Source: Fimbriimonas ginsengisoli Gsoil 348 (GTDB lineage: Bacteria; Armatimonadota; Fimbriimonadia; Fimbriimonadales; Fimbriimonadaceae). From it: 64,000 nucleotides of DNA. Below are positions 13,158 through 63,170 of the stretch, in pieces. How positions within the stretch are numbered: the first letter of the stretch is position 1; each line of letters opens with the position of its first letter. Position numbers and translations under genes: made by a program. The stretch lies in contig NZ_CP007139.1 of NCBI RefSeq assembly GCF_000724625.1, positions 5,022,001 through 5,086,000 of the forward strand. Direction: 5' to 3'. The notes under the pieces are model-generated. The model did not search any database and was not told the origin of the DNA. It was given only the letters and a program-made list of their open reading frames with translations.

Positions 13158-15758
13158 ATGAGACTCGAAAAACTAACCGTCAAAGCTCAGGAGGCAATTA
13201 GGGATGCGCAGGCGATCGCAACCGACCAGCAGCACTCCGCACTAGATGTCGAGCATCTGCTCGTCGCGATGCTGCAGCAAGAAGGCGGCATCGCACGCCC
13301 CATCCTTCAAAAGGTCGGCGCAGATCCCGATCTCATCCGAAGGGAGGTCGAAGGAGAGCTTGATCGCTCCTCCAAAGTTACCGGCGGCGGTAACTACGGC
13401 GAGTCGCTCTCGAATCGGATCCAAACCATTTTCAACGAAGCATTCAAAGAGGCCGATCGCCGAAAGGATGAGTACGTCTCCACCGAGCACCTCCTGCTCG
13501 CCATCTCCGAAGACCCGGGAGTAAGCGGGCGCGCGCTCCGCTCCAATGGCGTCACCAAGGCCTCGCTCTCTTCCGCCATCGACGAATTGCGAGCCGGCCG
13601 CCGGGTGACCGATCCGAACGCCGAGGACAGCTACCAAGCCCTCGAAAAGTACGGGATCGACCTTACCGACCGCGCCCGAACCGGCAAACTCGATCCGGTC
13701 ATCGGCCGCGACGAGGAGATTCGGCGCGTCATCCAGGTTCTTAGCCGGCGGACCAAGAACAACCCGGTCCTCATCGGTGAACCCGGCGTCGGCAAGACCG
13801 CCGTCGTCGAAGGGCTCGCCCAGCGAATCGTCTCGGGCGACGTTCCCGAAGGGCTGAAAGGCAAAAGAGTGATCTCGCTCGACCTCGGCGCCCTCATCGC
13901 GGGCGCTAAATACCGTGGCGACTTCGAGGACCGGCTCAAGGCCGTCCTCGACGAAATTAGAAAGTCGAACGGCGAGATCGTCCTCTTCATCGACGAGCTG
14001 CACACGCTGGTCGGCGCTGGTAAGGCCGAAGGCTCCCTCGACGCCGCCAACATGCTCAAACCGATGCTCGCCCGTGGCGAGCTGCGGTGCGTCGGCGCCA
14101 CGACTCTGAACGAATACCGGCAGTACGTCGAGAAAGATAAAGCGCTCGAACGAAGGTTCCAGATGGTCTTCGTCGGCGAGCCCTCCGTCGAGGAATCAAT
14201 CTCTATCCTTCGCGGTCTGAAGGAGCGATACGAGATCCACCACGGAGTCCGGATCACCGACTCCGCCATCGTCGCCGCCGCCACCCTAAGCGCGCGATAC
14301 ATCCAGGACCGCTACCTGCCCGACAAGGCGATCGACTTGATGGACGAGGCCGCGTCGCGCCTCAAGATCGAGATCGACTCCGTCCCCGCCGAGATCGACG
14401 AAGTCGAGCGGCAGATGGGACAGTTCGAGATCGACCGAGAAGCCCTTCGAAAAGAGACCGACCCCGCCAGCAAAGAACGGCTTCAAAACGCCGAACGCCG
14501 CCTGGCCGAGCTCCAGGAGAAGTCGAGCGGCCTCCGAGCCGTTTGGCAGCGCGAGAAAGAGCAGATCGAAGCCGTCCGAAAGGCGAAGACCGAGCTCGAC
14601 TCGTTACGCAGCCAGCTCGACGACGCCAAAGCCAATCTCGATTGGGCTCGCGCCGCGGAGATCCAGCACGGCCGCATTCCCCTGATCCAGCGAGAGCTCG
14701 AAGCCCAAACCGCCGAGCTCGAGAAGGTTCAGCAAAGCGGAAAGATGCTCAAGGAGGAGGTCGATAGCGAGGATATCGCCCAGGTCGTCAGCAAGTGGAC
14801 CGGCATCCCGGTCAGCCGGCTTCTCCAGGGCGAGATGCAGAAGCTTCTGACGATGGAAGAGCACCTCGCCCGACGCGTAGTCGGTCAAGAGGAGGCGCTC
14901 ATCGCCCTGTCCGACGCGGTGCGCCGCTCCCGGTCCGGCATTTCCGATCCGAACCGCCCGATCGGCTCGTTCCTATTCCTCGGCCCCACCGGCGTCGGCA
15001 AGACCGAAACCGCCAAGGCGCTCGCCGAGTTCATGTTCAACGACGAGAAGAGCATGGTTCGCATCGACATGAGCGAGTACTCCGAGAAGCACTCGGTCGC
15101 CCGGTTGATCGGCGCCCCTCCCGGATACGTGGGTTACGAAGAAGGCGGGCAGCTCACCGAGGCCGTCCGGCGGCGACCCTATCAGGTCATCCTCCTCGAC
15201 GAAATCGAGAAGGCGCATCCGGAGATCTTCAACGTCCTGCTGCAGGTTTTGGACGATGGACGGCTCACGGATGGTCAGGGCCGCACCGTCGACTTCCGCA
15301 ACACGGTGGTGATCCTCACGTCGAACATCGGCTCCCACTACTACGCGGATCCCCTTGGCGAGACGAACTTCGACGAGGTGAAGCAGCAGGTTCTCGACGA
15401 GATCCGGCTCCATTTCCGACCTGAGTTCATCAACCGGCTCGACGACATTCTCGTCTTCCGGCAGCTCGGAGTGGCGCAAATCAAGGAGATCGTAAAGATC
15501 CAGTTGCATCAGCTCGCATCCCGGCTCGCCGAGCGGCGAATCGAGTTGGAGCTGACCGAAGACGCGGCTCTCCAGATTGCCACCGCGGGCTACGATCCGA
15601 CCTACGGCGCTCGCCCGCTGAAACGGGCGATCCAGCGCGAGATCATGAACCCCCTCGCCAACGCGATCCTGCGGGGCGAGATCCGCGACGGCCAAAAAGT
15701 GCTCGCCGACTACCGCGAAGGAAGCTTCGTCTTCCAACCTTCCGGCATCCCCGCCTAG
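13158..15758 (+). CDS. clpB: ATP-dependent chaperone ClpB
   Basis: This is an AAA+ disaggregase that, with DnaK, pulls proteins out of aggregates in the cytosol. The 866-residue length is standard. The N-terminal double Clp repeat spans residues 1-145. NBD1 has Walker [10 protein letters not shown] and Walker [15 protein letters not shown]. The middle domain coiled coil (about 400-525), which separates ClpB from ClpA/ClpC, is present. NBD2 has [21 protein letters not shown] and the sensor region TSNIGS, and the C-terminus has [10 protein letters not shown]. No ClpP-binding loop is expected. It starts at ATG 13158 without a visible Shine-Dalgarno. It is followed at once by a perfect inverted repeat. 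An mcsA-like gene linked to stress control in Firmicutes is also in this window (59047). Confidence 0.97.
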
Positions 15759-15819
15759 TAGCATCGGCTCCCAGCCGATGAACCCAAAGTTAGGTTCATC
15801 GGCTGGGAGCCGATGCTAC
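15758..15819. repeat. Perfect 27-bp inverted repeat; inverted pair of GTAG-hairpin elements (REPIN-like)
   Basis: Arms 15758-15784 and 15793-15819 are perfectly complementary with an 8-base spacer. Each arm starts at its outer end with the head GTAGC, followed by its own small hairpin ATCGGCT-CCC-AGCCGAT. Two heads in opposite orientation around a short spacer is the layout of REPIN elements. It begins on the last base of the clpB stop and may also terminate transcription, although no T run follows. Confidence 0.9.
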
Positions 15820-18821: not shown

Positions 18822-18838
18822 CTACGGCGAAGCCGTAG
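18822..18838 (+). repeat. Short palindrome CTACGGC-GAA-GCCGTAG
   Basis: This perfect 7-bp hairpin with a GAA loop has the GTAG/CTAC heads inside the stem. Its ACGGC-GAA-GCCGT core is identical to the first stems of the elements at 44736 and 63135. It opens a 220-base run of such elements. Confidence 0.8.
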
Positions 18839-18846
18839 AAGGACCG

Positions 18847-18898
18847 CCGCTCTCCAGAGCGGCCTCGCCTGCGCCTGGTGTACCTTCGGTACACCAGG
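18847..18898. repeat. Two perfect hairpins in intergenic mosaic
   Basis: CCGCTCT-CC-AGAGCGG (18847-18862) and an 11-bp stem with a three-base loop, CCTGGTGTACC-TTC-GGTACACCAGG (18874-18898). The first motif recurs at about 32746-32760. No gene is seen here. Confidence 0.8.
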
Positions 18899-18901
18899 AT
18901 C

Positions 18902-18924
18902 ATCGGCGAGGGCGCCGACGCTAC
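18902..18924 (-). repeat. GTAGC-hairpin element, minus orientation
   Basis: On the minus strand the head GTAGC is followed by G and the hairpin TCGGCG-CCCT-CGCCGA. It is head to head with the next copy at 18930. Confidence 0.8.
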
Positions 18925-18929
18925 TCCCT

Positions 18930-18968
18930 ACGTCCGAAGGACGTGTAGCCGCGGGTTCCGTGCCCGCG
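18930..18968 (+). repeat. Two-hairpin GTAGC element, copy A
   Basis: Stem 1 ACGTCC-GAA-GGACGT, then GTAGC, then stem 2 CGCGGG-N7-CCCGCG. Elements with the same order occur at 32767, 44736 and 63135 with different but still complementary stems. Confidence 0.85.
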
Positions 18969-18998
18969 TCCCGGTGTACCGCAAGTACGCCGGAATCA

Positions 18999-19019
18999 TC
19001 GGCGGGGCGCCGACGCTAC
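18999..19019 (-). repeat. GTAGC-hairpin element, minus orientation
   Basis: On the minus strand the head GTAGC is followed by G and the hairpin TCGGCG-CCC-CGCCGA. It is nearly identical to the copy at 18902 and lies 22 bases before the start of the peptidase gene. Confidence 0.8.
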
Positions 19020-32766: not shown

Positions 32767-32802
32767 ACGCCAAAGGCGTGTAGCCGGCACCTAAGCGTGC
32801 CG
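32767..32802 (+). repeat. Two-hairpin GTAGC element, copy B
   Basis: Stem 1 ACGCC-AAA-GGCGT, then GTAGC, then stem 2 CGGCAC-N6-GTGCCG. The order matches copy A at 18930, with different but still complementary stem bases. Confidence 0.85.
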
Positions 32803-44735: not shown

Positions 44736-44776
44736 CCGCAGGTACGAGCCAACCTGCGGCTACACGGCTTCGCCGT
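44736..44776 (-). repeat. Two-hairpin GTAGC element, copy C
   Basis: On the minus strand: stem 1 ACGGC-GAA-GCCGT, then GTAGC, then stem 2 built on CGCAGGT/ACCTGCG with an 8-base loop. Same order as copies A and B. Confidence 0.85.
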
Positions 44777-60396: not shown

Positions 60397-60417
60397 CGGG
60401 CGGGCCGCCCGTGCTAC
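60397..60417 (-). repeat. GTAGC-hairpin element
   Basis: On the minus strand the head GTAGCA is followed by the hairpin CGGGCG-GCC-CGCCCG. It lies between the two lipoprotein genes and may also slow transcription between them. Confidence 0.75.
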
Positions 60418-63134: not shown

Positions 63135-63170
63135 CGGCACACGTGGGCGCCGACTACACGGCTTCGCCGT
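63135..63170 (-). repeat. Two-hairpin GTAG element, copy D
   Basis: On the minus strand: stem 1 ACGGC-GAA-GCCGT (identical to copy C), then GTAGT, then stem 2 beginning CGGC and closing GCCG with an imperfect middle. The head reads GTAGT rather than GTAGC. Confidence 0.75.

Follow-up and report, generated by a model that had tools for sequence, protein, structure and literature searches.

The 64-kb stretch of DNA analysed here (C1:5022001-5086000, hereafter the window) belongs to the single 5,231,762-bp contig of Fimbriimonas ginsengisoli Gsoil 348 (Armatimonadota) and contains nine units in which a GTAG head is directly followed by a hairpin (Table 1). What kind of element are these units, and what has spread them? 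The window has a G+C content of 61.3%, the genome paper giving 60.8% for the genome (PMC4072686), and no Y1_Tnp gene lies within it. A first-pass annotation had listed these copies by their lower ends; all are present, and four of them (heads at 18945, 32780, 44763 and 63157) indeed carry a further stem right before the head.

Table 1. GTAG units and associated hairpins in the window (window coordinates; the head column gives the first base of GTAG)
Feature	Coordinates	Strand	Head	Structure and context
Class A REP	15758..15779	+	15758	GTAGC + ATCGGCT-CCC-AGCCGAT; head starts on last base of gene ending at 15758
Class A REP	15798..15819	-	15819	Partner of 15758 in inverted pair, GTAG outside (REPIN)
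Mini-hairpin	18822..18838	+		CTACGGC-GAA-GCCGTAG; no class C/D hairpin behind
Spacer hairpin	18874..18898	.		CCTGGTGTACC-TTC-GGTACACCAGG; C-GAA-G loop on - strand; behind class B REP
Class B REP	18903..18924	-	18924	GTAGC + G TCGGCG-CCCT-CGCCGA
5' mini-hairpin	18930..18944	+		ACGTCC-GAA-GGACGT; abuts GTAG; CT in front
C/D-kind REP	18945..18968	+	18945	GTAGC + CGCGGG-TTCCGTG-CCCGCG; loop is that of REPs at the G071 RAYT
Spacer hairpin	18971..18993	.		CCGGTGTAC-CGCAA-GTACGCCGG; within hybrid REPIN 18945/19019; read directly from sequence
Class B REP	18999..19019	-	19019	GTAGC + G TCGGCG-CCC-CGCCGA; outer end of hybrid REPIN
5' mini-hairpin	32767..32779	+		ACGCC-AAA-GGCGT
Class C REP	32780..32802	+	32780	GTAGC + CGGCAC-CTAAGC-GTGCCG
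Class D REP	44737..44763	-	44763	GTAGC + CGCAGGT-TGGCTCGT-ACCTGCG
5' mini-hairpin	44764..44776	-		ACGGC-GAA-GCCGT
Apparent GTAGC-headed member of GTGGC-ACGGGC family	60397..60417	-	60417	GTAGC A CGGGCG-GCC-CGCCCG; cf. GTGGCACGGGCGGCCCGCCCGAGTAATAGCC
Class C REP	63135..63157	-	63157	Head GTAGT
5' mini-hairpin	63158..63170	-		ACGGC-GAA-GCCGT

Families of GTAG-headed hairpins and their distribution

Every 5-mer in 464 kb was scored, with no motif assumed, for a perfect stem of at least 6 bp directly after it. Among the 1,024 heads GTAGC ranked first, with 44/678 (6.5%) against 0.8% for all 5-mers. The copies fall into class A (GTAGC-ATCGGCT-CCC-AGCCGAT), class B (GTAGC-GTCGGCG-CCCY-CGCCGAT), class C (GTAGM-CGGCAC-CTACGY-GTGCCG), class D (GTAGM-CGCAGGT-TGGYTCGT-ACCTGCG) and a related GTGGC-headed family (GTGGC-ACGGGCT-TCC-AGCCCGT), of which the copy at 60417, judged by its letters, looks like a GTAGC-headed member rather than one of any other family. 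The conserved GT[A/G]G, unpaired and directly 5' of a palindrome, is the feature by which GTAG REPs are recognized. As a MAFFT alignment of classes C and D together misaligned the second hairpin, IUPAC patterns were used in place of a covariance model; these searches covered the whole genome, of which about 1.66 Mb was also examined as sequence. They recovered 229 copies of classes A and B, 118 of D and 38 of C (nearly 400 in all), in agreement with the tens to hundreds anticipated, while reversed control patterns gave 0. The 5-mer ranking, the zero control matches and a rate of mini-hairpins far over background (see below) rule out chance hairpins. A search of a phage collection with the locus gave no match. 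The first-pass annotation had also described the stem variants as compensatory: the first stem does vary yet pair within classes C and D, whereas the variants of the second hairpin compare different families, each with its own stem.

As had been expected, nearly all copies lie outside genes: 6 of 179 fall within genes predicted by a home-made dicodon gene caller, though about 87% of the 1.66 Mb is coding. As 0.4 Mb of this sequence was picked for holding class C/D copies, the unbiased 1.26 Mb is also given alone, with 4 of 89. Close pairs follow the REPIN layout, 34 being head-to-head (GTAG outside), 12 head-to-tail (tandem) and 4 tail-to-tail (GTAG inside). Class D-D pairs are mostly spaced by 96-104 bp and B-D hybrids mostly by 76-77 bp; hybrid dimers are reported from Stenotrophomonas in the GTAG survey (PMC3733652). 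No empty insertion site was found.

Two further kinds of repeat were encountered. Class A also occurs as "double foot" units (GTAGCATCGGC...GCCGATGCTAC; L042:1887, L049:4333 and L060:19151), palindromes with GTAG at both ends, the form that a REPIN might take on losing its spacer. Heptamer tandem repeats of the GTTAAGGC, GTTGAGGC and GTTGGGC types are among the commonest 14-mers in the 1.26 Mb (L045:19034-19100 and many other sites), and one such array directly follows a class A REP.

RAYT transposases and the nature of the repeats

The genome encodes 13 Y1_Tnp genes, six of them short and IS200-like and the remainder RAYT-like. For all five RAYTs tested the best family is NCBIfam NF047646 (REP-associated tyrosine transposase), with L011 and L012 scoring above its cut-off and L008, L013 and L014 below it though it is their best match; the sole PDB match of the L008 RAYT is 4ER8, the E. 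coli TnpArep. The residues contacting GTAG in E. coli are listed as W94, Q95, E100, H101 and R104 (PMC6006769), and the corresponding positions here are W, Q, D, H/R and R, i.e. WQ....DH..R in L008, L009 and L013 and WQ....DR..R in L012.

The first-pass annotation had proposed looking for a RAYT bordered by the head and hairpin of the dispersed copies; such genes were found for class B (L008) and class C (L007). The former (L008/L125; 211 aa, 1,982,533-1,983,165) is intact, is enclosed by a perfect 49-bp inverted repeat that includes class B REPs, and is most likely the class B cognate; the latter is frameshifted, with class C REPs and mini-hairpins on either side. For class D, the L012 RAYT is missing its N-terminal strand and is followed by class D remnants, and a second copy is truncated at the 3' end. 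The two broken class D-type copies, one without its 5' end and the other without its 3' end, lie about 3 kb apart (L105 7836-8249 and 11213-11371; G000 C1:4202836 and 4206213), and three class D REPs adjoin the second. The putative link of class D to a RAYT is thus drawn from remnants. As the RAYTs found for classes C and D are broken, these two families may now be immobile. No RAYT flanked by class A was found in this genome; one with class A REPs at its flanks occurs in the relative G010.

L004 and L006 (G000 C1:2310916 and 18747) are near-identical IS200-like TnpA genes with a YIQNQEAHH motif, like subclass 1.2, and the same short flanks, and are likely to represent a recently active element. 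The L011 RAYT (G000 C1:31814-32317) has long inverted-repeat flanks rich in GGACGTCCC/GGGCGTCCC and devoid of a GTAG head.

In relatives, all ten RAYTs of the L012 clade (order Fimbriimonadales, nine species; support 97/99) have GTAG hairpins or remnants beside them, with stems that differ (CCCAGCC, CGCTGCC, CGCCGG, CGTCAG, GTTCCGG and others), and two members of the sister clade have GGAG-like heads. This comparison indicates that head and RAYT clade go together, and that the stems change but stay paired: ten family stems pair at 100% in their own combination, against 55% with arms shuffled. Within a single genus, entire REP families change from one species to another. Beside a RAYT of G025, GTAGC-CGCTGCC REPs stand in tandem every 114-115 bp (L082 693-1150).

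Taken together, the hairpins are almost certainly GTAG-type REP/REPIN elements, that is short, non-autonomous repeats spread by RAYT (TnpA_REP) HUH transposases acting on single-stranded DNA, the reading that the first-pass annotation had put first. The units here combine the head with a perfect hairpin, are numerous, sit between genes and pair head to head; the same REPs stand at the ends of RAYT genes, and RAYT and head are linked throughout a clade. If the REPtrons studied in E. coli, Stenotrophomonas and Marinomonas are a guide to the mechanism, the RAYT would bind the folded GTAG strand, with GTAG as the guide; a nearby CT (or CA) would be the cleavage site, and the REPIN would then be copied or moved.

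Two other origins were weighed. The REPs make inverted repeats at RAYT genes and the near-identical L004/L006 pair is present in the genome, both in keeping with decayed ends of conventional IS elements bearing terminal inverted repeats. Such an origin is scarcely credible, however, given that REP copies far outnumber RAYT genes, that most are fixed-spacing REPINs or single units without any gene, and that the RAYT copies in the genome are divergent rather than recent. The second origin, which the first-pass annotation had kept as an alternative, would make the repeats RNA elements, either riboregulators or terminators, maintained for a role in transcripts. Their stems covary, and convergent gaps are favoured, with 60 of 163 classified copies as against 123 of 706 gaps (the gaps from the unbiased part), so that some could be terminators. 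Yet there is no Rfam match, and copies beside co-directional genes show no strand preference (39 sense, 40 antisense). The conserved GTAG is left unpaired, entire families differ among species of one genus, and the same units flank RAYT genes. We regard an RNA function as the basis of these repeats as very unlikely.

The mini-hairpin ahead of GTAG in classes C and D

In 60 of 73 class C/D copies a perfect stem of at least 4 bp reaches right up to GTAG or stops a single base short of it (background 3.7%). The stem types are AACGC, ACGGC, ACGCC, ACGTCC, ACGAC, ACGCGC and ACAACC, each with its complement, and the arms pair fully within types as opposed to about 53-63% when shuffled. Loops on the GTAG strand (n=60) are mostly GNA, with 35 GAA, 14 GCA and 1 GGA. 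DNA mini-hairpins of this kind with GNA loops are reported to be extraordinarily stable (PMC4686876), and two of the forms seen here, AACGC-GAA-GCGTT and ACGGC-GAA-GCCGT, contain exactly the described GCGAAGC (reported Tm 78 C). Our DNA energy model scores the GNA and TNC strands of the mini-hairpin equally, its parameter set giving the same values for both, and the special stability therefore rests on the literature. There the GNA mini-hairpin figures as a chemical motif and as part of aptamers, and we did not find it described as a REP component. Likewise, a mini-hairpin preceding GTAG was not found in the available text of the REP surveys. The closest cases are REPs that have inserted into palindromes and, in Pseudomonas, degenerate GTAG-1 units linked to stem-loops unrelated to them.

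The base before the mini-hairpin stem is T in 47 of 52 copies and the dinucleotide CT in 29 of 52 (CT background 5.4%), conservation falling off further out. The cleavage dinucleotide of the studied TnpA_REPs is CT, its choice by the AG of GTAG having been proposed (PMC8266576); the CT enrichment is only suggestive of a cut site. We propose that in classes C and D the mini-hairpin folds out the linker between this 5' CT and the GTAG guide on single-stranded DNA, so that the two would meet across the foot of a highly stable DNA hairpin.

The twin-hairpin layout recurs in G015, with 13 exact copies of one form and a second hairpin of the CCCAGCC or CGACGGC type, and in G010, of another genus, with 7 copies, and thus in three species and two genera; other relatives have 0-3. 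The two letters before the mini-hairpin in G015 and G010 are not consistently CT, which, like the equal scores from the energy model, speaks against the proposed linker role. The exact AACGCGAAGCGTTGTAGC form does not appear to be widely shared, as its 8 scattered matches in GTDB genome contigs (a set from which the own genome was possibly left out) are about the chance prediction.

Could the mini-hairpin lie outside the element, as an insertion target beside which REPs land? A REPIN often has different mini-hairpin types at its two ends, and palindrome-inserted REPs are recorded by the GTAG survey in Thermomicrobium roseum and Anabaena (PMC3733652). On the other hand, mini-hairpins are almost absent away from GTAG units or what is left of such units. 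They show no interruption and stop exactly where GTAG begins. Their type tracks that of the second hairpin in the G015 copies read, and the same layout is found across the three species. We consider a target improbable and favour the mini-hairpin as a component of the REP. With hardly any found without GTAG, mini-hairpins as independent repeats were also ruled out.

RAYT genes within host genes and relation to known systems

Members of the RAYT clade related to L008, and to the class A/B RAYTs, frequently lie in frame within host genes across the phylum. Open frames exceed 400 aa in 17 of about 78 phylum matches, while close L012 relatives measure 101-218 aa. In F. ginsengisoli itself (G000; L209/L140, C1:2235671-2236237, - strand) a RAYT splits a zinc alcohol dehydrogenase ORF into the order ADH_N, RAYT, ADH_zinc_N. 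In G009 and G036 the RAYT separates the ATP-binding domain of carbamoyl-phosphate synthase from the oligomerisation domain; carB of G011 and G106 contains it too, making four species in total. Other hosts are metH (G061), a GH38 mannosidase (G010), the end of prmC (G026), the end of a TetR gene (G101) and DNA methylases (in-frame loci: L209/L140, L205, L208, L210, L217, L206, L222, L204, L212, L213, L220 and L221). GT[AG]GC REPs stand at most of the RAYT/host-gene junctions read. In-frame REPs are already known; whole RAYTs in frame were not found described in the literature. It looks as though entire REPtrons have entered coding sequence more than once, and the pattern suggests, as far as sequence can tell, that a "domesticated" transposase may still be mobile together with its REPs, with essential genes among its targets. 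Such persistence in frame would be shared with inteins, from which these REPtrons differ in being without any known splicing.

GTAG REPs, REPINs, hybrid dimers and structured spacers are already known. With the GTAG REP superfamily (Di Nocera et al. 2013, PMC3733652) our elements share, on the published features available, an unpaired 5' GTAG with a perfect stem-loop, intergenic location, high copy number, head-to-head dimers with structured spacers, hybrid dimers and RAYT association; they differ in the new phylum and in the complete, covarying mini-hairpin that classes C and D add before GTAG. The first-pass annotation had taken the layout as gammaproteobacterial: GTAG REPs are indeed a well-known kind but are not confined to that group, the phyla named in the survey being Proteobacteria, Cyanobacteria, Chloroflexi and PVC. 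As in REPINs (Bertels and Rainey 2011, PMC3116915), the main unit is two inverted REPs at a fixed short distance, with the difference that class B-class D hybrids here join classes that go with different RAYT clades. The TnpA_REP/RAYT subclasses 2.4 and 2.7, in the account available (Quentin et al. 2018, PMC6006769), share the NHVH/DHVH, WQ and Y..NP motifs, GT[AG]G REPs and "double foot" REPs (GTAGC...GCTAC); here the 2.4-like clade, assigned to a subclass by motifs only, is often in frame in host genes.

As far as the literature found goes, the REP/RAYT set is new for Armatimonadota, as the first-pass annotation had supposed. The available text of the genome paper (PMC4072686) reports few transposases and makes no mention of REPs. 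We give even chances to the broader proposal that Armatimonadota REP-RAYT systems include two unrecorded forms. The first would be twin-hairpin REPs, with an ultra-stable mini-hairpin bridging the distance from the cut site to the GTAG guide. The second would be REPtrons (a RAYT with flanking GT[AG]GC REPs) moved as units into coding sequence and persisting in frame as an extra domain (carB, metH, alcohol dehydrogenase, alpha-mannosidase and others).

The REP/RAYT world gains a phylum, and a genome previously described as IS-less holds nearly 400 mobile-type repeat copies. The twin-hairpin layout, in which the stem and loop of the mini-hairpin can be altered independently of GTAG and the second hairpin, offers a testable handle on how a RAYT picks its cut site.
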